Assembly: GCF_964355755.1 (NCBI RefSeq)
Contig: NC_092670.1
Span: 29,191,795-29,255,794, forward strand
Length of the DNA stretch: 64,000 nt
Source of the DNA: Antedon mediterranea
Taxonomy: Eukaryota > Echinodermata > Crinoidea > Comatulida > Antedonidae
Direction: 5' to 3'
Below, piece after piece: positions 2,728-63,398 of the stretch (position 1 is its first letter; the number at the start of each line of letters is the position of its first letter). Made by a program: the position numbers and the translations under genes. The notes beneath the pieces are model-generated. The model did not search any database and was not told the DNA's origin. It saw nothing but the letters and a program-made list of their open reading frames with translations.

Positions 2728-5700
2728 AAATCACACTGATCATATCCAACATTAAGTATTAATAATTATTATTGATTAGGTAGATAATAAAAGATGCGTT
2801 ATATCAATTTATGAATACACAGATCATATCCAACAATGTGATATAGATTATTAATAATAATTTTTAATGAGTTAGATATTTAAAGATGCGTGCTCAGTTA
2901 TCAAATTATGACTACACTGATCATATCCAACAATGTGATATAAGACATTAATAATAATTATTGATGAAATAGATATTTAAAGATGCGTGCTCAGTTATCA
3001 AATGACGACTACACTGATCATATCCAACAATGTGATATATGATATTAATATGAATTATTGATGCGGTAGATATTGAAAGATGCGTGCTCAGTTATCAAAT
3101 TCTGACTACACTGATCATATCCAACAATGTGATATATGATATTAATATAAATTATTAATGAGGTAGATATTTAAAGATACGTGATCAGTTATCAAATTCT
3201 GACTACACTGATCATATCCAACAATGTGATATATGATATTAATATAAATTATTAATGAGGTAGATATTGAAAGATACGTGATCAGTTATCAAATGACGAC
3301 TACACTGATCATATCCAACAATGTGATATAGATTATTAATATTAATTAATGATGTGGTAGATATTAAAAGATGCGTGCTCAGTTATCAAATTCTGACTAT
3401 ACTGATCATATCCAACAATGTGATATACGATATTAATATAAATTATTAATGAGGTAGATATTGACAGATACGTGATCAGTTATCAAATGACGACTACACT
3501 GATCATATCCAACAATGTGATATATGATATTAATATGAATTATTGATGCGGTAGATATTGAAAGACGCGTGCTCAGTTATCAAATTCTGACTACACAGAT
3601 CATATCCAACAATGTGATATATGATATTAATATAAATTATTATTGAGGTAGATATTAAAAAATACGTGCTCAGTTATCAAATTATGACTACACTGATCAT
3701 ATCCAACAATGTGATATATGATATTAATATTAATTAATGATAAGGTAGATATTGAAAAATACGTGATCAGTTATCAAATGACGACTACACTGATCTTATC
3801 CAACAATGTGATATATGATATTAATATAAATTATTGATGACGTAGATATTAAAAGATGCGTGCTCAGTTATCAAATTCTGACTACACTGATCATATCCAA
3901 CAATGTGATATATGATATTAATATAAATTATTAATGAGGTAGATATTAAAAGATGCGTGCTCAGTTATCAAATTCTGACTACACTGATCATATCCAACAA
4001 TGTGATATATGATATTAATATAAATTATTAATGAGGTAGATATTGAAAGATGCGTGCTCAGTTATCAAATTCTGACTACACTGATCATATCCAACAATGT
4101 GATATATGATATTAATATAAATTATTATTGAGGTAGATATTAAAAGATACGTGCTCAGTTATCAAATTCTGACTACACTGATCATATCCAACAATGTGAT
4201 ATATGATATTAATATAAATTATTAATGAGGTAGATATTGACAGATACGTGATCAGTTATCAAATGACGACTACACTGATCATATCCAACAATGTGATATA
4301 TGATATTAATATGAATTATTGATGCGGTAGATATTGAAAGACGCGTGCTCAGTTATCAAATTCTGACTACAGAGATCATATCCAACAATGTGATATATGA
4401 TATTAATATAAATTATTATTGAGGTAGATATTAAAAAATACGTGCTCAGTTATCAAATTATGACTACACTGATCATATCCAACAATGTGATATATGATAT
4501 TAATATTAATTAATGATGAGGTAGATATTGAAAGATACGTGATCAGTTATCAAATGACGACTACACTGATCATATCCAACAATGTGATATATGATATTAA
4601 TATAAATTATTATTGAGGTAGATATTAAAAGATACGTGCTCAGTTATCAAATTCTGACTACACTGATCATATCCAACAATGTGATATATGATATTAATAT
4701 AAATTATTAATGAGGTAGATATTAAAAGATACGTGCTCAGTTATCAAATTCTGACTACACTGATCATATCCAACAATGTGATATATGATATTAATATAAA
4801 TTATTAATGAGGTAGATATTTAAAGATGCGTGCTCAGTTATCAAATTACGACTACACTGATCATATCCAACAATGTGATATATGATATTAATATAAATTA
4901 TTAATGAGTTAGATATTGAAAGATGCGTGCTCAGTTATCAAATTCTGACTACACTGATCATATCCAACAATGTGATATATGATATTAATATAAATTATTA
5001 TTGAGGTAGATATTAAAAGATACGTGCTCAGTTATCAAATTCTGACTACACTGATCATATCCAACAATGTGATATATGATATTAATATAAATTATTAATG
5101 AGGTAGATATTTAAAGATGCGTGCTCAGTTATCAAATTACGACTACACTGATCATATCCAACAATGTGATATATGATATTAATATAAATTATTATTGAGG
5201 TAGATATTAAAAGATACGTGCTCAGTTATCAATTTCTGACTACACTGATCATATCCAACAATGTGATATATGATATTAATATAAATTATTAATGAGGTAG
5301 ATATTTAAAGATGCGTGCTCAGTTATCAAATTACGACTACACTGATCATATCCAACAATGTGATATATGATATTAATATAAATTATTATTGAGGTAGATA
5401 TTGAAAGATGCGTGCTCAGTTATCAAATTATGACTGCACTCATCATATTCAACAATGTGATATAGGATATTAATAATAATTCTTAATGAGGTAGATATTG
5501 AAAGATACGTCCTCAGTTATCAAATTCTGACTACACGGATCATATCCAACAATGTGATATATGATATTAATATAAATTATTAATGAGGTAGATATTGAAA
5601 GATGCGTGCTCAGTTATCAAATTCTGACTACACTGATCATATCCAACAATGTGATATATGATATTAATATAAATTATTAATGAGGTAGATATTGACAGAT

Positions 5701-7480
5701 ACGTGATCAGTTATCAAATGACGACTACACTGATCATATCCAACAATGTGATATATGATATTAATATAAATTATTAATGAGGTAGATATTGACAGATACG
5801 TGATCAGTTATCAAATGACGACTACACTGATCCTATCCAACAATGTGATATATGATATTAATATGAATTATTGATGCGGTAGATATTGAAAGATGCGTGC
5901 TCAGTTATCAAATTCTGACTACACTGATCATATCCAACAATGTGATATATGATATTAATATAAATTATTATTGAGGTAGATATTAAAAGATACGTGCTCA
6001 GTTATCAAATTATGACTACACTGATCATATCCAACAATGTGATATATGATATTAATATTAATTAATGATGTGGTAGATATTGAAAGATACGTGATCAGTT
6101 ATCAAATGACGACTACACTGATCATATCCAACAATGTGATATATGATATTAATATAAATTATTATTGAGGTAGATATTAAAAGATACGTGCTCAGTTATC
6201 AAATTCTGACTACACTGATCATATCCAACAATGTGATATATGATATTAATATAAATTATTAATGAGGTAGATATTAAAAGATACGTGCTCAGTTATCAAA
6301 TTCTGACTACACTGATCATATCCAACAATGTGATATATGATATTAATATAAATTATTAATGAGGTAGATATTTAAAGATGCGTGCTCAGTTATCAAATTA
6401 CGACTACACTGATCATATCCAACAATGTGATATATGATATTAATATAAATTATTAATGAGGTAGATATTGAAAGATGCGTGCTCAGTTATCAAATTCTGA
6501 CTACACTGATCATATCCAACAATGTGATATATGATATTAATATAAATTATTATTGAGGTAGATATTAAAAGATACGTGCTCAGTTATCAAATTCTGACTA
6601 CACTGATCATATCCAACAATGTGATATATGATATTAATATAAATTATTAATGAGGTAGATATTTAAAGATGCGTGCTCAGTTATCAAATTACGACTACAC
6701 TGATCATATCCAACAATGTGATATATGATATTAATATAAATTATTATTGAGGTAGATATTAAAAGATACGTGCTCAGTTATCAATTTCTGACTACACTGA
6801 TCATATCCAACAATGTGATATATGATATTAATATAAATTATTAATGAGGTAGATATTAAAAGATGCGTGCTCAGTTATCAAATTCTGACTACACTGATCA
6901 TATCCAACAATGTGATATATGATATTAATATAAATTATTATTGAGGTAGATATTAAAGGATACGTGCTCAGTTATCAAATTCTGACTACACTGATCATAT
7001 CCAACAATGTGATATATGATATTAATATAAATTATTAATGAGGTAGATATTTAAAGATGCGTGCTCAGTTATCAAATTACGACTACACTGATCATATCCA
7101 ACAATGTGATATAGATTATTTATATTAATTTTGATGCGGTAGATATTTAAAGATGCGTGCTCAGTTATCAAATGACGACTACACTGATCATATCCAACAA
7201 TGTGATATAGATTATTAATAATAATTATTGATGATGTAGATATTAAAAGATACGTGCTCAGTTATCAAATTATGACTACACTGATCATATCCAACAATGT
7301 GATATATGATATTAATATTAAAATTGATGACGTAGATTCTAAAAGATGCGTGCTCAGTTATCAAATTATGACTACACTCATCATATTCAACAACGTGATA
7401 TAGATTATTAATAATAATTATTGATGAGGTAGATGTGAGATGCGTGCTCAGTTATCAAATTGTAACTACACTGATCATAA
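2728..7480 (+). repeat. 97-bp satellite array with higher-order periodicity
   Basis: About 49 head-to-tail monomers. The landmark ccaacaatgtgatata recurs every 97 bp (3121, 3218, 3315, 3412 and onward). Variant monomers recur at larger intervals: tattgatgcggtagatattg occurs at 3541, 4317 and 5869, intervals of exactly 8 and 16 monomers. A variant missing one a (ttatcaatttctgac) recurs at 5231 and 6783, exactly 16 monomers. The array therefore grew by duplicating 776/1552-bp blocks. Terminal monomers (before 3000 and after 7090) are the most diverged. Monomers contain the palindromes TGATCA and ATTAATAT but no ORF. Confidence 0.95.
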
Positions 7481-17803: not shown

Positions 17804-17939
17804 AACAAATTGACAGCATATGCATGTTTTTTCTAGAATAATTGTTGTTTTTTTATGCTAATGTGCTAATTTTAATTGAAACTTTGGTTATGATGCTAAA
17901 TTAATACTACCTAAAGACTAGAAACAAATGAAACAAAGG

Positions 17940-18600
17940 AAAAAATTAATTTAAGACATAACTTGCATACTGGAACATGGAATGTAAGAAGTATGACTGA
18001 TCCTAGCAAACTGCACATTCACCAGAGAGAATTATATAGATGCACAATTCCGATCTGTGGTTTATCAGAAGTCCGATGGATTGGGAAAGGTCATTTCAGA
18101 ACAGATAATGGATACACTGTGTACTTTTCTGGCTCAGATAGACTAAGGCGTAATGGAGTTGGTTTTATAATGTCAGGACAATCTGCAAAATCTGTTCTTG
18201 GATATAACCCAATCAGTGACAGAATTATATCCATTCGTCTTCAAGCAAAACCAGTCAATATCTCAATAATTCAAGTGTATGCTCCAACCTCTTTAGTAGA
18301 TGAGGAGATAATTAATTAATTTTACCAAGAACTCCAAGAAACTATTAATAAAAACCCCAAAGAGAGACATTGTTATTATTATGGGTGATTTTAATTCCAA
18401 AGTTGGAAGTAACCTGGAGAAGAATCATGCAATGGGAAGGTTTGGGCTTGGCCATGCTAACGAGAGAGGTGAAAAACTGATGGATTTCTGCATTGAGAAT
18501 GACCTGGTTTTAACAAATACATTATTTCAACAGCACCCATGACGACTATATACTTGGATATCACCAGATGGAAAATATCGAAATTCGTTGCAAACTAAAG
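17940..18600 (+). pseudogene. RTE/BovB-like LINE: apurinic endonuclease region (decayed)
   Basis: The first 118 codons (17963-18319) carry LINE endonuclease motifs: TWNVRSM near the start, GLSEVRWIGKGHF around residues 30-42 and a VGFI...QVYAPT segment. After a stop and frame change, the domain continues at about 18378 with the catalytic GDFN motif (MGDFNSKVG) and a SPDGKY motif near 18570. The usual following QIDYI region appears deleted. The full endonuclease would nick target DNA for target-primed reverse transcription; this copy is broken by frameshifts and stops. Confidence 0.85.
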
Positions 18601-18689
18601 ATAGTAAAACGAGACACTCTACTACGCAGATATGATGTTAAACAAATAAATGATCAATATCGAGCTGAAGTCTTAAAAAGGAAAAAACA

Positions 18690-19483
18690 TGGAAACCAAA
18701 TGAATTGTGGGAGTTGACAAAAAATGCAATCTCATTAGCAGCTCGGAAAAATTTACCAAAACTAAAGAAATGCAGAGCCGCTTGGATATCGGACAAGGTG
18801 GTTGCACTGGCAGATGAAAGGCGGCAAATAAAAGCAAATGGTTTACACAGTGGGAGAGACCGCAGTCAATATAAACATCTTTAGTAGAAGTATCCAACAT
18901 GTTACTAGACAAGATAAACAGACCTTTCTTGAAAGAAAATGCAGGGAGGTTGAATCGCATTTCGTTACCAATCATTCTAGAGACTTCTTCAAAGCTTTAA
19001 ACAAAATTACTTGCAAGAGGGCTGTAAAATTAAATGTTATTAAAGATAGGGACGGTACGATTCTAACTGAGAGTCACTAAATCAAGTATAGGTGGAAAGA
19101 ATATTGTCAAAGATTGTATGATAGTAAAGATGCAGATCAAGTTACAAAAGCAATTGATGTAGATTAACATGAACCAAATATACTAAGATCAGAAGTGGAA
19201 TTTGCAATAAAGAAAAAGGATGGGAAAACATCGGGATATGATGATATTCCAGCTGAGCTTCTTAAGGAGACAGGGGATGAAGGTATCTCTTTAATGCATA
19301 ATCTATGTAACTTGATATGGACCGATAAGAGCTGGCCAACTGACTGGGCTAGATCAATATTTATACCGCTACCCAAGAAAAGAGATACAAGAGAATGCAA
19401 AAAGAATAGGACTATTTCTCTGATATCACACACGAGTAAGATTATGCTGTACATAATTCGTCGTAAAATTCCTCAAGAACAAG
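18690..19483 (+). pseudogene. RTE/BovB-like LINE: linker and reverse transcriptase fingers (decayed)
   Basis: Consecutive open pieces (18838-19080, 19195-19503) encode a linker with HSRDFFKALNKIT and the early RT segment KKDGKTSGYDDIPAELLK, followed by PLPKKRD. These match the start of RTE-type reverse transcriptases. In-frame stops at 19080 and about 19165 show it is non-functional. The reading frame is cut at 19483 by a SINE and resumes at 19816 with no loss of coding sequence. Confidence 0.85.
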
Positions 19484-19809
19484 TTAGTTTATTTTTTAGT
19501 TAGTTTAGTTAGTTTATTTTTATTCTGGATGACCTCTTCAGTCAAAGACTGATCTCCCAGAGGGCCCAGTTTGTGATCAGTGGCTAGTACAACGGGGTAA
19601 TCCCCTACACGTCTCGAAAGATGTACTAGGTTCTTTAAAGTGCACACGAGCTAGTTGTGTACACTGGACCTACGGTTTATAGTCCTTATCCGAGAAGACT
19701 CGTTCTACTACCAGAACCATGGAGTGAGTGAGCCTCGAACCCTTGCCGATGTTATGGCTACGTAATACGGTTCCACTGTCTTGAACCGCTCGGCCACTCA
19801 CTCACTCTA
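19484..19809 (-). mobile_element. tRNA-Ser/Leu-type SINE inserted in the RTE LINE
   Basis: On the minus strand the head reads GTGAGTGGCCGAGCGGTTC (A box, about 19784-19802), with B box GGGTTCGAGGCT at 19731-19742. The spacing between boxes suits a class II (Ser/Leu) tRNA with a long variable arm. The body runs left to a tail of ACTAA/TAAA repeats at 19484-19515. AACAAG flanks the insertion at 19478-19483 and 19810-19815. Removing the insert rejoins the RT frame as PQEQAGFVEGRG, so the boundaries are secure. A related body fragment lies at about 26905-27055. Confidence 0.9.
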
Positions 19810-19815
19810 AACAAG

Positions 19816-20570
19816 CAGGTTTTGTAGAAGGAAGAGGTACAAGAGACCAAATAGCAAATATTAGAAATATAATGGAAAGAGCTATTGAATTTAACCTTCC
19901 GCTATATATGTGCTTTATTGACTATTCAAAAGCTTTTGATACTGTGCAGCATCAAAGACTCTGGAATATTTTAATAGCAATGGGCTTTCCAAGGCATGTA
20001 GTAGAACTCCTCAGGACATTATATGATAACCAGGAAGCTGCTGTGAGGACTGTATGCGGTGAGACAAGGTTGCATACTGTCTCCGCGCTTGTTTAATGTC
20101 TATGCAGAATATATTATGAGATTAGCTATAGAAAACTGCAATAGCGGAATATCTATTGGTGGCAGAACTATAAATAATATCAGGTATGCTGATACTACTT
20201 TAATAACAGATAATGCACAGGAAATGGAAGGTCTGGTTGAAAAAGTAAGAAGGGAGAGTGAAAAGTTTGGCTATTTTCTAAATGTAAGCAAGAAAAAGGT
20301 GATGATCATTAACCCACAAGAGGAGAACCCTATCATTCATGCAGGAAACCAAGTAATTGAAGTTATCAACTACTTTAACTTCCTTGGTTCGATGATTTCA
20401 AACCATGGTGGATGTTCCATTGAGATCAAACATCGTCTGGCAATGGCAAAATCATCAATGTGTTTAATGCACAAGATATGGAAAGACAGAAGCATCAGCA
20501 AGGCAACAAAAATTAGATTAATTAATCGGAGCTCTAGTTTTTCCAATTGCAACATACGCATGTGAAACAT
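19816..20570 (+). pseudogene. RTE/BovB-like LINE: reverse transcriptase core (decayed)
   Basis: Two overlapping frames carry RT motifs in order: AGFVEGRGTRDQIANIR, FIDYSKAFDTVQH (first catalytic Asp), RQGCILSPRLFNVYAEYIM, then IRYADTTLI where YADD is expected. The second Asp of YADD is Thr, so this copy cannot be catalytic even apart from the frameshift near 20070. A conserved-type LNVSKKKVMI follows. The closest family by motif is RTE/BovB. Confidence 0.9.
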
Positions 20571-20985
20571 GGGTAATTAATGCTGCAGATCAAAAACGAA
20601 TTGAAGCTTTTGAGATGTGGTGCTGGAGAAAGCTTCTAGGTTTCCATGGACTGCCAGAAGAACTAATGAAAGTGTAAGGCACGAAATAGGCAAGAAAGGC
20701 ACATTAATCGGATCTATTATCAAACAAAAACTACAATATTTTGGACATATTGCCAGACGGGATGGAGATAGTATGGAGAAAATGATTATGTTTGGGAAAG
20801 TTGAGGGGAAACGAAATAGAGGAAGACAGAGACTCAGATGGATTGATGGTATAAGTGGTGCTGCTAACCGACCAATAATCAGTTGCTACAATGAAGCTCA
20901 AAATCAGCAAGAATGGAGAGACCTCATCAGAATGGTCACGAGTACTCAGATATGAGTAGAACGATGAGTCAGTCAAAAACTAGAT
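20545..20985 (+). pseudogene. RTE/BovB-like LINE: C-terminal region
   Basis: Frame 20617-20955 encodes PWTARRTNESVRHEIGK, KLQYFGHIARRDGDSMEK and GKRNRGRQRLRWIDGI, the conserved tail of RTE/BovB proteins. The frame shifts relative to the RT core at about 20560. The stop is at 20953-20955 and no long poly(A) follows, as expected for RTE elements. Confidence 0.85.
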
Positions 20986-23171: not shown

Positions 23172-24020
23172 TTACAATTCATTCTTTGTGCGTAAAATCC
23201 AAACATGTTCTAACTCTATATTTATCATTATATTTCGTCTCAGTTCATCCCATAAACAGGAGACTCTGGGACACAGATATAAATAATGTTCTATATTATC
23301 TATCAATTGTGCATTACAGAAGTTACAAAACTGATCTTCAATTATTCCCATTTTTTTCAGTAAAATGTTTGTTGGGTAACAATTATTCAGGATTTTCCAG
23401 TTTGTGGAGAATACTCTAGGGTATTGGGAGACTATGCATAGATTGTTCCAAATATCATCCCAATTAAATTCATAAAATTTGAAATGATGTTGCCAGTACA
23501 CTTGACTGCTTGGTGGTTTGAAATATTTATGTATAAGTTCATACCTTATTAATAGATTTGTTAGTGACTCTATTGTTATAAACTGATTCTTTGTGTAAAA
23601 TCCAGGGGAATTTAGTACTTGGTCACAATTTTCGTTATAGTTACCATAAATCCACTCCTTTGGAATTGCCTTAAAAAGCATAAAGTATTCTATGGTGAAG
23701 GATTCTTTTCTTTGCACCACTTCTTTAACTTGTGAAAAAGACTTTAATGTTGCATCTTTATTAAAAAGATCTTTGATATAAACGATCCCGTTCTCTATCC
23801 ATTTTTTAAAATACAGTTGCCTATTTTCATATGTAATGCAAGAATTGCACCAAATAATCTCGTTTGCTGGCATACCCACTTCAATTGTATTCTTGGGAGT
23901 TTTAAGTTCATACCAACATAACAACCACAATAACATAAAATTCTTTCCTTTGCGTCTGTAAAGTTGTATAAAGTTGTGATGCAGAGGAATTAAAATAGAG
24001 AGACGATATATTCGGTGCAA
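23172..24020 (-). pseudogene. L1/Tx1-like LINE C-terminal domain with cysteine motif
   Basis: A 282-codon frame ends in a cysteine/histidine cluster, FCNFCNAQLIDNIEHYLYLC followed by P and CLWDEL. It resembles the CxxC...H...C domain at the C-terminus of many L1/Tx1-clade ORF2 proteins. It continues the LINE reading frame after the frameshift at about 23950. Nucleic-acid binding is expected from the family. Confidence 0.8.
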
Positions 24021-24534
24021 TACCTGATAAAATTGACAGTGGTATATTTTTCCATGCTGCTATTTCATTGTTAAAAATTCTTTTGATCCAATTGATTTTA
24101 AAGGTAGTTATTATAGTAGGTACATGGACCATATCTAGACCTCCATGTATTTTGTTTCCAATAACCGTAGTCCGTTTAACTTTTTCCTTTTTGCCTCCCC
24201 ATAAAAATGTATATAGTATTGTTTCTATAGCTTTATTAACCCATTGAGGTACATCGAGGACCATAATTGGAAATAAAATTTGGGATATCAGCAGTGATTT
24301 AATAATTACCACTTTACCTTTCAACGACAGATATCTTTTTTCCCATAGGTAGGTAATGTTTTGTAGTTTTTCTATTTGTTTCGTCCAATTTTCCTCGATA
24401 TTTTCAGCCGGTATTGTGTTAGAAAATATAATGTCTATAAGTGCTTTTGCTTTTCCGTCATTTTTCCAATTAATGTCTTCGACGTTTTCCTTTTTTTTTA
24501 CGTTACTACCACAGGCCTTCTGTTTTATTTTTAT
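23908..24534 (-). pseudogene. L1/Tx1-like reverse transcriptase, thumb region
   Basis: The frame after the YADD box includes LHLNKNKTEACG, then EKRYLSLKGKVVIIKSLLIS and FLWGGKKEKVKR...GGLDMVHVP, the conserved post-catalytic segment of L1/Tx1 RTs. The open piece 23908-24324 is followed by a frameshift into 23172-24020. Confidence 0.85.
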
Positions 24535-24999
24535 TTAGATGCAAGCTTGACAAATTGGAAAATTCTTTAATGATTTTAAAAACATTTGAGATGGAAGCAT
24601 TATCACCAAGAAATAATGTGTTGTCATCAGCATACTGTAGCTAGTAATTTTGATTTCGTTAATTGGATAATTTGTATTAGGCAATTTGATACCATTTACA
24701 TCTTTACTCATTTTAATTTTGAGAGCGAAGATTTCTGTCGCAATGTTAAAAAGGTAAGGACTCAATGGGCAACCTTGTCTAACCCCAGATTTAAGTTCGA
24801 AGAATTCAGATAACCACCCGTTGTGGTTTATACAACTCTTTGTGCCTTTAAGTAGCGTTGCTACCAACGAAATAAATGATGGACCAAATTTAAATTTGTG
24901 TAGTGCTTTTAAGATAAAATTTCTATCAATGGTGTCGAAAGCTTTACTGAAATCTAAGAAAATGGCTGCACCAGGAATATTTTGTTTTTGTGCCTGCCG
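24535..24999 (-). pseudogene. L1/Tx1-like reverse transcriptase, N-terminal part
   Basis: From the truncation point the frame reads AAIFLDFSKAFDTID (first catalytic Asp), then GWLSEFFELKSGVRQG and CPLSPYLFNIATEIF. Near 24645 one frame ends and YADD continues in another (YADDNTLFLGDN), so the catalytic box is present but frameshifted by about one base. This is typical of a recently dead LINE copy. Confidence 0.9.
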
Positions 25000-25857
25000 T
25001 TGATCGTTTTACATAATATAATTTTTTAGAAAAACATCACATCGACCGAAAACAAAGGTAATCAGAGCCTTTGATGATATGTTAAATATGATTTTATTAA
25101 GCATAGAAATGTGTTATTATTTATGTTAGTACATAAATATACGAAATAATGTTCAATACTCATTATTTTATTAAAGGCACTATGTGCGTGCGATATTCTA
25201 TGACTTGGATACTCTCGTTTGATTTAAGTTTTTGTGGCTAAACTCATCGTTTTTAACATAAATTCGGACGATTTTTGCTATAAAAGTTGGGTTTTCATAA
25301 TTAATTAACAATTATCTACTCTCATTTGGTAAGTATTGCAACATTCTGAGTCTCGTTTTTGTTTCCGTTTGGTGTTTTGTAGGACCGCGCTCGCGAAAGA
25401 CAACAGTTGTTCACGTGGGAAGGGCCGTATCATCGCCTTTGTTGAGGAATTAGGCTAGATAAAAATTATCCTAGGCGATTGGGCGCTGCACGACCCTCCC
25501 CACGTTATTGAAGGCGCCATGAGAATTAATTTTATTAGCAATAGTAAAGTAGGCTTTACAAAAAACAAAACTTGTAGACCTATAGACAACATTTTATTAT
25601 TTTAACATGTTTGAGATGTTTGGCAATATACACACGTGTGTACTGACGACGTCGATGTAAACAAACAGCCAACTTACTACTTCCGTCTGAGTGTATTGCA
25701 TTTTGGTTTTGCTCGACGACCACCCATAGATTTAACCAGTTATTTCGGAGCACAAATTGAGCAGAAACGCGGTCTTGTTATTGTTAATGTTATCTATTTT
25801 TAATCTATTTTAAAATAACCGGTTAAATTGCGTTATGCAGCAGAAACAGACCCATTG

Positions 25858-43331: not shown

Positions 43332-44438
43332 CTAGGAATCAACATAGGACTTTACAGAGATGACGGCCTTGCAGTCACAGACACCACACCTAAAAGCACA
43401 GAAAATATTAAAAAAGACATATGCCAAATATTCAAAGATAACGGCCTACGCATTACCATAGAAGCAAACAAACAAGTCATCAACTTCTTAGACGTCACAC
43501 TCAACCTACCGAAGAACACATACCAGCCCTACACCAAACCAAACGCCACGTTAAAGTATATCCATCAACAAAGTAACCACCCACCGACCATCCTAAAGAA
43601 TATACCCGCCGGAATAAACAAACGACTCTCGTCCTTGTCATCCGACAAGAATTCATTCAACCAAGCCGCCCCTGTATACCAAAAAACTCTCAACGACAGT
43701 GGATACAAGTACACACTAAAATACGAGCCGGTAACCCAGACAAGACGAAAAAACAGACAACGAAACGACATTCTGTGGTACAACCCACCGTTCAGCAAAA
43801 ACGTCAGCACAAACATCGGACAGAAATTCCTATCCCTAGTAGACAAACATTTTCCAAAAGATAACAAACTAAGAAAAATCTTCAACCGAAACACTATCAA
43901 GATTAGCTACAGTTGTATGAACAATATGAAACAGATAATAGACAGTCACAACAAGAGAATACTCAACCAGCCCGAAACAACATCCGTGGAAAACACACAA
44001 GAAAACAAAACATGCAACTGCCGACAGAAAAACACATGCCCGCTAAACGGAAATTGCTTACAATCATCTGTAATATACCAAGCCACAGTTACACACAAAG
44101 ACAAATCCACCTCGGAAACTTATATCGGACTCACTGAAAATGATTTTAAAACACGATACAGAAATCACACCTCATCATTCCGTAATACACGTTCTAGAAC
44201 CTCAACCGAACTCAGTAAACATATTTGGACACTCAAGGACAACACCACAGACTATTCAATCTCATGGCGCATCTTGGCATCTACTAAAGCATATAGTAGC
44301 GCAAACAAAAAATGCAACCTCTGCCTCAAAGAGAAATTATTTATCATCCGCCACCCTGAATTATCGACATTAAACAAATGTAACAAACTTGTGTCCGCCT
44401 GCCGGCACAGAAAGAAAGCATTGTTACATAACAGCTGA
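43332..44438 (+). CDS. Penelope-like element: reverse transcriptase C-terminal part and GIY-YIG endonuclease
   Basis: An open frame of 368 codons continues from LGINIGLYRDDGLAV, where YRDD is the RT catalytic box, through FNQAAPVYQKTL and WYNPPFSKNVSTNIG to IFNRNTIKISYSC. A cysteine cluster follows (CNCRQKNTCPLNGNC), then a GIY-YIG nuclease core with VIYQATV and ETYIGLTENDFKTRYRNH, ending in CNLCLKEKLFI and CRHRKKALLHNS. RT plus a C-terminal GIY-YIG domain is diagnostic of endonuclease-bearing Penelope-like elements. The frame is intact here but separated from its N-terminal half (28390-28697) by the 14.6-kb array, so this copy cannot make a full protein. Confidence 0.9.
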   Translation, partial: LGINIGLYRDDGLAVTDTTPKSTENIKKDICQIFKDNGLRITIEANKQVINFLDVTLNLPKNTYQPYTKPNATLKYIHQQSNHPPTILKNIPAGINKRLSSLSSDKNSFNQAAPVYQKTLNDSGYKYTLKYEPVTQTRRKNRQRNDILWYNPPFSKNVSTNIGQKFLSLVDKHFPKDNKLRKIFNRNTIKISYSCMNNMKQIIDSHNKRILNQPETTSVENTQENKTCNCRQKNTCPLNGNCLQSSVIYQATVTHKDKSTSETYIGLTENDFKTRYRNHTSSFRNTRSRTSTELSKHIWTLKDNTTDYSISWRILASTKAYSSANKKCNLCLKEKLFIIRHPELSTLNKCNKLVSACRHRKKALLHNS

Positions 44439-60802: not shown

Positions 60803-61036
60803 ATCAAACCAGGGAGTTGTTATTAGATGGAGTAACAACAAATTTATCAACTGATCTACAGCCAATAAGCGACGAGCGGTATACAGGAACCTCAAAGGAT
60901 TATGCAGTCAACTGGCACTAATTTCCTGCCTTTTGTTTGGAGTCTACTTTGCCGACGATGCCAGGCCCTCTATCGCCGGGATTCGTCCATTTTGAGTAAA
61001 GACTTTCGATGCATTCCTGACAAACAAACATTGTAG

Positions 61037-61045
61037 GCATGCGCA
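61037..61045. promoter_or_regulatory. NRF1-like site upstream of the zinc-domain gene
   Basis: GCATGCGCA, half of the NRF1 palindrome, lies about 190 bp upstream of the putative first-exon donor at 61226. A longer version lies upstream of the PHD gene at 63194-63204. Suggestive only. Confidence 0.35.
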
Positions 61046-61225
61046 GATGATTCCTTCTTCGTCTATAGCTTTACAATTTGTTTACGTCATTAGAGAATTC
61101 TGCAATATATATTTTACAAAAAACCGCTTTAAATTCCGACCTTTCGTTAAAAAGTTACGATAATTCAAAGTGTATGTTCATCTGTTTGTTTGTAGACCTT
61201 CTTTCGTGATTTTCAGAGACTTTTG

Positions 61226-61764
61226 GTAAGTTTTAAAGTTAATATTTGATATTTTCCGCACGTTTCTCCATTTTAACACCAGCGCTAATATTTAAAAGAG
61301 TATGTCTTCTATCATTCTCTTGATATCTTATTTTCTTACAGTTTCTTACATAATCGTAATTTTGGTTAAAATACAACATGTTTTTATAGGTGTGGGCATG
61401 TTGTCAGTAGTGATAAACGCCAGCGTGTAATCTGGGTAATTAACACCCTCCGATCGTATGTTTGTTGGCGGCTGGAATCGCCGATTCTGGTGATGCACTA
61501 GGTACACCACCAGGGCCTAGGCCTAGCCAGGGAGATGGTCTAATAACAAATCCCTGGCCTAGCCCTCTCCCATAAATAGGCCTAGGCCCCTGCACGTATG
61601 CTAGGCGGGGAATTACCTATATAACTAAGCATAGCCTATAGAATAGGCCTATATAATTATAGGATGTCCACTATAAATAATAATTAATATTAATACAATT
61701 CTATGACTATGTATGAATGTACTGACTGTAATTTATTTTGTTGTCTTCCTGTTATTCATTATAG
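61226..61764 (+). other. Predicted 5'-UTR intron of the zinc-domain gene
   Basis: Consensus donor GTAAGT at 61226 (after agagacttttg) and acceptor ttcattatag ending 61764, just upstream of the start codon at 61782. The intron contains the 29-bp excision scar at 61528-61556. Splicing is inferred from consensus only. Confidence 0.5.
61528..61556. mobile_element. 29-bp CAGGGA...TCCCTG scar with 7-bp direct repeats
   Basis: It starts CAGGGAGATGG and ends TCTAATAACAAATCCCTG. The last 18 nt match the right terminus of the surrounding 2.5-kb element (63335-63352) at all but one base. Perfect 7-bp repeats GCCTAGC flank it (61521-61527, 61557-61563). It is best read as the footprint of an excised relative, keeping about 18 nt of one end and 6-7 nt of the other. 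Confidence 0.8.
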
Positions 61765-62177
61765 GAATTTGTACTGTAATAATGGAAATACAGGCTATTT
61801 GTCGTTTATGTGGGCGAGAGACTGCTGCATCTGACTCAAGACGTCTAATTTTGAAATCTGATTATTCAGATTTAATCCAGCGTGCACTACAAGTAGATGT
61901 GAACACGGATATTCTCCCACCATACAGTTGTAACAACTGTAGAGTAAAACTTGACACATGGAAGAAGAATATGCGCTCTAAAAAGAAGGATGTAAAAATT
62001 GGAATAAACCTTGCTGATTTTGATTCCAGTGAAAAACAGACAGAAGAATCTTTTTTCTGTGAGGCAGCAGTAGTTGCATTGCATCTCAAATGGGATACAT
62101 TCTTTGGAAAGGAGAAGACAAACACATGTTTACAAACATTGTTATTTGTACATGATTGTACATGTATTTATTTTTAA
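61765..62177 (+). CDS. Small protein with RAG1-N-terminal/ZAD-like CxxC...CxxC zinc domain
   Basis: The start is at 61782 (MEIQAICRLCGRE); the stop is at 62175-62177, giving 131 codons. Residues 7-53 form the domain: C7-x2-C10, then RRLIL, YSDLIQRALQVDV, then LPPYSC50NNC53RVKL and a Trp at 58. The order CRxCG...R...LI..AL.xDV..D...P...C..C..K matches the first zinc-binding region at the RAG1 N-terminus and is also ZAD-like. Lysine-rich sequence follows; the last 45 residues have no domain and may be read-through. An ATTAAA polyadenylation signal is at 62198-62203. The longer frame from 61713 crosses the splice acceptor and is not favoured. Function, if any, would be DNA or protein binding. 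Confidence 0.7.
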
Positions 62178-62227
62178 ATATGTATTTAATACAAAGAATT
62201 AAAAAATGACTCAGTATATCGATTATT

Positions 62228-62233
62228 TTTATT
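62228..62233 (-). terminator. Polyadenylation signal of the PHD gene
   Basis: AATAAA on the minus strand, 10 bp after the PHD-gene stop codon. The convergent gene stops at 62177, so the two transcription units meet within about 50 bp. Confidence 0.6.
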
Positions 62234-62242
62234 TACAGTATA

Positions 62243-62373
62243 TCATTCATTAAAAGCCTTGGTTACATTTAGATATACAGTACTGTTCAGTACTTGATTT
62301 TTCTTCTGCACTGTAGCCCCTTTCTTCTTTGTCTGTGCAGGGAGTTCCCTGGTCTGTGCAGGAACATCTTTGT
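62243..62373 (-). CDS. PHD-finger gene, exon 2
   Basis: The acceptor is tttcaattctag, with an A/T-rich tract, on the minus strand (ends 62374). Continuing in phase 1 from exon 1, the frame reads DKDVPAQTRELPAQTKKKG and on through a lysine/glutamine-rich tail to a TGA at 62245-62243. An AATAAA follows within 10 bp. The segment RELPAQT is encoded by a 21-nt insertion: 14 bp of CAGGGA...TCCCTG scar plus a 7-bp target duplication (62331-62358). Acceptor, phase, stop and polyadenylation signal together support a real exon. Confidence 0.7.
62338..62351. mobile_element. 14-bp CAGGGAGTTCCCTG scar with 7-bp direct repeats, in coding exon
   Basis: Perfect 7-bp repeats GTCTGTG lie at 62331-62337 and 62352-62358. 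The scar joins about 9 nt of one element end to 5 nt of the other. Scar plus one duplication is 21 nt, so the PHD-gene reading frame is kept. Confidence 0.8.
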
Positions 62374-62746
62374 CTAGAATTGAAAAAAAAACAATTAACA
62401 TAACTCCCTGGTCATACATTTAATCAGGCGTTGTCAATTTAACTCCCGGCATTTGTTAACAAATGAAAAATACATAAATCTTCCCAATTGTCAGTAGTGA
62501 CAGCCCAGGTCATAATTAATAAATGGAAATAATACTGCATCATCAGAAAGTTGTTTTTATTGGGGTAGGCCTAGCCCCTACTTGACCGTCCCTTCCTTCC
62601 TTCCTGATGAAATATTAAAGTTCAATGAATAAATACCTGTAAAAAAAAGGCAACGTAAAAGGCCTCCTTTCTTTCCTAGAGATTCTAGCTAGGAACGGTA
62701 GGCTGCAGTAGTATCAAATATTGAATAGGCTACACCAGTTACTAAC

Positions 62747-63069
62747 CTGTTTCTTGAGTAGTAGTAGTACTACTAGGTCGCTTAACACTAGGCCTACTTG
62801 AGCCAGGCCTATGCCCAATATTATTAACGTCGTGTTGTTGACAGCATTGCTCACAAACCCATTTGCCAGCTGGAACTTCAGAAGATGTGAGCAGTGAGCT
62901 TCACACATTCAAAATGGAACCATTCATTAGGACATGCTTTTCCTTCACAAGCGATCATTTGATCGTCAGAACTTTCCCCACATGGGCAATACATTGGCAC
63001 ATTTTCATTTAGATCAACATCTTCTAAATCGCTATCATCGAAATCTAAATCGGAAAAGTCTACGTACAT
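62747..63069 (-). pseudogene. PHD-finger protein, exon 1 (frameshifted in this copy)
   Basis: From the ATG at 63069 the frame has an acidic leader (FSDLDFDDSDLEDVDL) and an ING-like PHD finger: YC28PC30G, MIAC41, C46PNEWFH52FEC55. After CVKL the frame reaches a stop at about 62886; the other frame resumes with LTSSEVPAGKWVCEQC, completing the C4HC3 set, and runs to a donor GTTAGT at 62746. The frames are offset by a 7-nt near-duplication (gctcact/gctcaca, about 62896-62909). An out-of-frame ATG lies at 63094. PHD fingers of this type usually bind methylated histone H3K4; the aromatic residues needed were not verified. A sequencing error could also explain the shift. Confidence 0.75.
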
Positions 63070-63193
63070 CGGTATAGAAGTCGTCAGTTGTCATTGTGTG
63101 TCGCGATTGTATCATCTGGCTTTCTGAAACACCATGACGATGTGTGACTTAGGCCAGAGTTATTCAAGCGAAGCGAAGCAACTTTGACTTTTC

Positions 63194-63204
63194 TGCGCAT
63201 GCGC
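63194..63204. promoter_or_regulatory. NRF1 palindrome upstream of the PHD gene
   Basis: TGCGCATGCGC lies 125 bp upstream of the PHD start codon and is followed by TTACGTCA (CRE-like) at about 63214. NRF1 sites are typical of animal housekeeping promoters, which suggests the promoter has cellular character. Confidence 0.45.
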
Positions 63205-63398
63205 GTGTCATTGATTACGTCAGGGAAAATTGTTTATTTGATGAGGAACTGTTTATCGGGGATTAAGTCTTATCTATTTTACTTCCTGTCGGAAAAGTAG
63301 ACTGATCAAAAGAACATACTATGATGTTACTCCATCTAATAACAACTCCCTGATCAAACTACCTGTAAAGTAATTGAAGCGCTATTATGTAAGTCTGT

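Follow-up and report, generated by a model that had tools for sequence, protein, structure and literature searches.

A compact crinoid transposon is probably an internally deleted derivative of a two-gene P-superfamily element with a RAG1/RAG2-like layout

The 64,000-nucleotide stretch of Antedon mediterranea DNA analysed here (the window; contig NC_092670.1, positions 29,191,795 to 29,255,794) contains a 2,543-bp transposon at 60810-63352 that carries the remnants of two convergent zinc-finger genes, gene A and gene B. We are highly confident that this element is non-autonomous and KP-like, derived by internal deletion from a P-superfamily transposon with two genes. The family is placed in the P superfamily by the predicted catalytic domain of its larger relatives, a P-type RNase H, and is filed as a variant because no THAP match was listed. 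The main point of interest is the layout of these relatives, which is like that of RAG1 and RAG2.

An earlier interpretation made from the letters of this DNA (the sequence-only reading) had described perfect 28-bp inverted repeats and a 7-bp target duplication, and both were confirmed: the computed pairing of the terminal inverted repeats (TIRs; 60810-60837 with 63325-63352) is perfect across 28 bp and 97% across 31 nt, and the target-site duplication (TSD) ATCAAAC was read on both sides. When up to three mismatches were allowed, a 21-bp part of the TIR matched the window twice, compared with no match in 100 shuffles, and the 28-mer matched the whole genome 24 times, 12 on each strand, with no match for the reversed control. 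This end sequence, CAGGGAGTTGTTATTAGATGG, is the TIR of a family of compact elements. By analogy with P elements, the subterminal repeats may serve a P-element-like function. The features of the window copy are as follows:

60803..60809, no strand: left 7-bp TSD, ATCAAAC, read directly
60810..60837, plus strand: left TIR, 28 bp, perfect, from repeat pairing and genome matches
60941..60956, plus strand: left subterminal inverted repeat, 16 nt, 94% complementary to 63288-63303
61782..62177, plus strand: gene A, a 131-aa open reading frame with CxxC...CxxC; zinc domain at residues 6-61
62134..62177, plus strand: gene A tail, from about 62134 (element position 1325 onwards) common to a 4.0-kb copy, L028
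62243..62373, minus strand: predicted exon 2 of gene B, short, basic and in frame, with a consensus acceptor at 62374 and a stop at 62243
62747..63069, minus strand: exon 1 of gene B, an acidic leader and an ING-like PHD finger, with the frame broken in this copy
62887..62893, no strand: tandem duplication of 7 bp that puts the PHD out of frame; 7 of the 8 compact copies have it
63288..63303, minus strand: right subterminal inverted repeat, pairing with 60941-60956
63325..63352, minus strand: right TIR, 28 bp, perfect, from repeat pairing and genome matches
63353..63359, no strand: right 7-bp TSD, ATCAAAC, read directly

The two genes lie tail to tail, as had been described, with gene A on the plus strand and gene B on the minus strand. 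They had also been called two spliced zinc genes; both are present, but the coding part of gene A is a single exon, and the splicing of gene B is predicted from consensus sites, which delimit a GT...AG intron and join exons 1 and 2 in frame. In Pfam, gene A matched zf-AD below the cut-off (E 1.7e-4), and RAG1_imp_bd was not listed for it. The gene A tail is probably junction sequence rather than ancestral coding sequence, because it is shared with the 4.0-kb copy, which itself lacks gene A. Judged by its homologues, gene A can be read as what remains of the first coding exon in a gene for a P-type transposase. The C4HC3 PHD finger of gene B is broken in the window copy and was seen whole in an intact copy, L030; the frame-shifting duplication is absent from the copy at C3:37.36M. 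By sequence, this PHD is closest to ING (1wes, E 8.6e-11), whereas Pfam RAG2_PHD matched at E 0.027 and was not listed for the intact PHD of L030.

Much of the evidence for our interpretation comes from larger relatives in the same genome. A search with gene A returned 21 matches, comprising the compact copies, an older copy (L033), fragments and the N-termini of longer frames. Gene A homologues head open frames of 617 aa at C3:12.88 Mb, 617 aa at C6:31.44 Mb, 590 aa at C11:13871.9-13878.2 kb, and 621 and 574 aa at the two C5 loci (14.66 and 16.16 Mb), the 574-aa frame having one stop within the gene A match; shorter frames of this type have 367 aa (C1:8.87 Mb) and 259 aa (C3:13.48 Mb). The five long-frame loci represent three families: the C3/C6 pair (99.5% DNA identity over 6.5 kb), the C5 pair (95% identity in protein) and C11. 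Four frames were scanned against Pfam. TNP-like_RNaseH_N scored above the cut-off in all three long frames, one per family (E 7e-25, 3e-19 and 5e-24), and was absent from the fourth, shorter one, and zf-AD was found below the cut-off in all four (E 1e-3 to 1e-5 in the long frames). Importantly, matches to the PHD and to a helical domain lay convergent to gene 1, within 4.9-9.4 kb, at all five long-frame loci. Both ends of the C11 element are present, giving a length of 6,324 bp with 32-bp perfect TIRs and the 7-bp TSD CGGTATC; at C5:16.16 Mb the ends are 96% alike over 23 bp with an 8-bp duplication, and the genes contain stops; one end each was seen for the C3 and C6 copies. A further P-type frame, at C1:2.82 Mb, matches the C5 transposase from residue 120 on (E 1.1e-46) and faces a convergent helical-domain frame (profile E 1.5e-16 among 402 sequences); the zinc domain was not seen there. 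The statement that no core recombinase is present is therefore true of the window copy and untrue of its relatives, which carry a P-type catalytic domain.

The 4.0-kb copy (L028; 4,014 bp) has the ends and PHD exon of the compact copies, with identical TIRs, and lacks gene A. Its plus-strand frame ends in TNP-like_RNaseH_C (Pfam E 1.2e-8, above the curated cut-off), and its minus-strand frame encodes the gene 2 helical domain, with one stop. The search that had been suggested, for longer copies with the same TIR and a transposase inside, was thus productive in part: it yielded this copy with its P-type RNaseH_C exon, but no complete copy in the sequence read near the TIR matches. The parts missing from L028 and from the compact copies look complementary, as if both had arisen by internal deletion from one parent with two genes. 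In protein searches, gene A alone gave no match, and a composite query (gene A, an unknown run and the RNaseH_C piece) gave nothing at E 0.01 among 349 candidates. A partial internal copy of the TIR lies at window 61539-61557, directly beside the point at which L028 departs from the compact copies (element position ~747), and may have guided an internal deletion.

The minus-strand piece of L028 gave 17 protein matches. Of the 14 gene-2-type proteins scanned, two contain a PHD match, one belonging to the sea star Patiria miniata and one to Antedon; the remaining 12 have no PHD match and are possibly partial. In Antedon, gene 2 comprises the PHD and a conserved helical domain (RYxAGYI...NRGGL, alignment A2), and its C11 version matches an 'uncharacterized protein [Antedon mediterranea]' at 100% over 91 residues and 99.7% over 290. 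The RNaseH_C exon of the P-type gene ends soon past its RNaseH_C motif, and the conserved helical domain is located in gene 2. A correspondence between this domain and the C-terminal domain of P transposases is no more than suggested: one of the 14 members matched Pfam Tnp_P_element_C (E 0.013), a search of the PDB with the helical profile gave no chain of a P transposase (E up to 1), and the RNaseH_C piece matched the P transposase chain 6p5a only at E 0.62.

We then considered the zinc domain, which had been likened to the RAG1 N-terminus. An alignment of seven such N-termini (A3) matched the human RAG1 region in hhalign (96.2%, pairwise E 2.2e-9, 99 columns, 31% identity for the first row), with all three CxxC pairs in line and the third present in four of the seven rows; the RAG1 letters used are recognised by Pfam RAG1_imp_bd at E 2.6e-69. 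One scanned relative also matched RAG1_imp_bd, below the cut-off (E 0.0049), and the likeness is thus upheld. None of 2,000 shuffles reached the score of gene A alone against RAG1, also with cysteines fixed; for its homologue in the odd copy L034, 126 of 2,000 did so with cysteines fixed. AlphaFold modelling of gene A gave a predicted local distance difference test score (pLDDT) of 50 in a first model from 2 sequences and of 68.6 in a later one. In Foldseek, crystal structures of fly ZAD domains took the first five of 11 places for the later model (best probability 0.85, TMt 0.61, root-mean-square deviation 2.0), with no significant E-value (0.58 or higher), and phmmer with gene A against the PDB listed no ZAD. 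ZAD and RAG1 had been posed as mutually exclusive outcomes, a choice that dissolves in view of the weak match of the RAG1 region itself to zf-AD (E 0.0026). Given this match, the RAG1 alignment and the ZAD-ranked predicted fold, it looks as though ZAD and the N-terminal domain of RAG1 form a single broad family, to which the gene A-type zinc domain probably belongs.

The alignment with RAG1 over three CxxC pairs, the convergent layout and the presence of a PHD would also be expected of a non-autonomous RAG-like (Transib/ProtoRAG) element carrying RAG1 N-terminal and RAG2 PHD pieces. We consider such an origin extremely improbable, because the RNase H of the relatives and of the 4.0-kb copy is P-type. 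Furthermore, the criteria given for RAGL/Transib elements are a 5-bp TSD, CAC ends and a kelch region (PMC7204232), whereas the window element has a 7-bp TSD, which had already raised doubt in the sequence-only reading, and CAG/CAT ends. No kelch was among the 16 Pfam families listed, at E up to 1, for the 14 gene-2-type proteins, and the ING-like PHD has a spacing that, by eye, is unlike the one given for RAG2L (PMC7204232). A search of the genome with PF12940 (Transib-type core) found no match, but its controls gave none either. Because TSD length, ends, PHD type and the catalytic domain of the relatives all differ, the crinoid family is outside RAG/Transib, which it resembles in layout, and the kinship that had been hinted at was not sustained.

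Transposons can capture exons, and the PHD exon resembles ING proteins, as the match to 1wes indicates; the element might then be one in which two unrelated host genes, ZAD-type and ING-type, were picked up once and then spread. This is very unlikely, as the two genes recur, convergent and in an identical order, as parts of larger coding genes in three diverged families (the C5 pair, the C3/C6 pair and C11), and this sharing indicates that the gene pair is older than the window copy. The idea of a cassette captured once also fails in that each of the two pieces matches the first coding exon of one of the relatives' genes. The PHD itself may have an older ING origin.

Eight compact copies, including that of the window, were read at 2,533-2,554 bp; pairwise they differ by 0-23 substitutions over 2,499-2,546 aligned bases, and each is flanked by its own TSD. 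An exact 7-bp TSD was found in 9 of the 10 elements read at both ends (a tally that leaves out two micro-forms), the remaining one, L028, matching at 6 of 7 positions. The compact element is recently mobile, and the earlier suggestion of a non-autonomous carrier agrees with a window copy that has no transposase and near-identical copies that have spread. Besides L028, older or odd copies that share the TIR include L033 (3,356 bp, a nested element included), L034 (90% alike in its first 355 bp, with a different interior and no second end found within 13.7 kb) and L038 (one end seen). Micro-forms consist of little more than the two inverted repeats fused together: one of 60 bp with TSD CACAGAG occurs in two places (L037 501-560, and L036), and one of 36 bp with TSD TTTTTAG lies at L039 2501-2536.

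In 5 of the 8 compact copies the gene A frame stays open across the zinc domain; it is broken in three (two with a common 5-bp insertion, one with a stop), and the PHD frame is broken in 7 of 8. The codon changes, which are small in number, are almost all non-synonymous: relative to the window's first 110 gene A codons, five differ among the compact copies, none synonymously and one to a stop; relative to the 84 PHD codons of the intact copy, three differ, all non-synonymously; and the older copy L033 has one synonymous and five non-synonymous changes in gene A and one and three in the PHD. The PHD remnant is decaying. Open gene A frames would be expected if selection on coding kept the compact element, with the gene A protein as a KP-like repressor or the pair as regulators, and fly KP elements do encode a 207-aa repressor protein (PMC7776569). 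We regard such selection as unlikely, because the non-synonymous changes and the broken frames of both genes point to passenger decay, a pattern that fits mobilisation of non-autonomous copies in trans.

Consistent with a P-type transposase, the target sites resemble GTCNGAC, the P-element target palindrome: twelve sites (micro-forms included) fit it at 39 of 72 positions, whereas random 7-mers drawn from the window averaged 15.8 and none of 20,000 draws did as well, in a test that was not blind, as the palindrome was picked after the sites were seen. Like the P element/THAP9 superfamily (Drosophila P, Galileo, zebrafish Pdre2), the crinoid family has a P-type RNase H (Pfam TNP-like_RNaseH_N/C, Tnp_P_element helix-turn-helix), TIRs close to 31 bp in length, subterminal repeats, copies with internal deletions and a palindromic target preference. 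The TSDs of 7-8 bp and TIRs of about 31 bp that mark this superfamily compare with 7 bp and 28/31 nt in the window element, 7 bp and 32 bp in C11, and 8 bp for the C5 duplication. TIRs of 27-31 bp are given for mosquito P elements and TIRs of 31 bp with subterminal repeats for fly P elements (PMC1562414, PMC7776569), and papers on Galileo speak of a 7-bp TSD (PMC4168063); the comparison literature also includes PMC3124419 and PMC10983969. The crinoid family differs from these elements in having a ZAD/RAG1-like zinc domain in the THAP position and a second, convergent PHD gene that holds the helical domain.

Several observations weigh against our interpretation. No THAP match was found in Pfam at E up to 0.1 in the four scanned frames, and PMC1562414 ascribes THAP to all known P proteins. 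Fly, mosquito and zebrafish P elements have 8-bp TSDs (PMC1562414, PMC7776569), as does the C5 relative, as opposed to the 7 bp of the window element. The likeness of the window TIR to the ends of C11, C6 and C5 is not significant (358, 970 and 1,355 of 5,000 shuffles, respectively, score as high), and the sequence read near the 24 TIR matches, in which L034 and L038 showed one end only, contained no complete copy with the window TIR. The loci C1:8.87 Mb and C3:13.48 Mb gave no gene 2 match, and the pair is accordingly seen at 5 of the 7 loci with frames of at least 259 aa. Finally, gene A retains two CxxC pairs and has lost the third.

Under the P-superfamily interpretation, L028 and the diverged relatives suggest that the parents had two convergent genes. 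Gene 1 would encode a transposase in which a zinc domain like ZAD and the RAG1 N-terminus takes the position that THAP has in known P transposases, and gene 2 would join a PHD finger to the conserved helical domain. Internal deletion would have left the first coding exon of each, and the P-type transposase of a related element would act on the ends in trans and spread the compact copies. By analogy with THAP, the zinc domain may bind the element ends; the PHD protein may be a second subunit or target chromatin; and free gene A protein could repress transposition in the manner of the fly KP protein (PMC7776569). As in KP and other internally deleted P elements, the window element is non-autonomous, keeps the ends and the exon of the N-terminal zinc domain, and has spread recently; unlike them, it also keeps the first exon of a second gene, and a repressor role for gene A is putative.

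Other observations concern insertions and neighbouring repeats. An 11.6-kb copy at C3:37.36M (L029/L030), considered as a complete element, was rejected: a compact copy there is interrupted by a nested, satellite-filled element of 9,066 bp with a 7-bp repeat on either side, and no transposase-like frame was seen within the insertion. In the window, a 97-bp satellite array of ~49 units occupies 2757-7479 (inverted at 1-271). At ~2389-3267 of L033 (window orientation) lies a nested DNA element of ~0.9 kb with its own inverted ends and, by eye, a short Myb/MADF-like frame. Compact copies differ by insertions of ~5-7 bp at window 61890, 62187, 63066, 63103 and 63170, which by eye resemble tandem duplications, are numerous relative to the few substitutions between copies and are possibly a trace of break repair. 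Reverse-transcriptase-like frames, by eye long interspersed nuclear element-like and Penelope-like, lie at window 17915-20952, 23175-25008 and 43332-44435.

The crinoid family shares with RAG1-RAG2, ProtoRAG and RAGL elements a similar N-terminal zinc region, an RNase H transposase and a convergent partner gene (with a PHD in many), and differs from them in its P-type rather than Transib-type core, a TSD of 7-8 bp, an ING-like PHD and a partner in which kelch was not seen. Chapaev and N-RAG-TP ('Chapa' carriers) likewise have a RAG1 N-terminal-like zinc domain in a DNA transposon (PMC4411706, PMC8355894), whereas the element described here is P-type; they are likened and set apart by their descriptions only. 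Kapitonov and Koonin 2015 (PMC4411706) state that, among known transposable elements, only Chapaev, Chapaev3 and TransibSU, groups of the Transib superfamily, encode the RING finger and the Chapa domain found at the N-terminus of RAG1. A domain that can be aligned with the zinc region of that N-terminus is now seen to head P-type transposases that face a convergent PHD gene. We found no earlier report of a RAG1-like zinc domain on a P-type transposase, or of a split P transposase, in keyword searches of the open literature, Repbase and closed journals being outside the scope of the search; a P-type transposase split into two genes would be new, if true.

We tentatively speculate, as a possibility that we rate somewhat below even, that crinoid P-superfamily transposons are split into two convergent subunits, one joining the zinc domain to RNase H and the other the PHD to a detached C-terminal helical domain. 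They would then be a second, independent two-gene transposase of the RAG1/RAG2 kind, with the RAG1 N-terminal domain and PHD partner module either exchanged between the P and RAG lineages or ancestral to both. With this family as an outgroup, one can ask why RAG-like transposons consist of two genes in convergent order, and what the original roles of the RAG1 N-terminus and its PHD partner, such as end binding and chromatin targeting, may have been.

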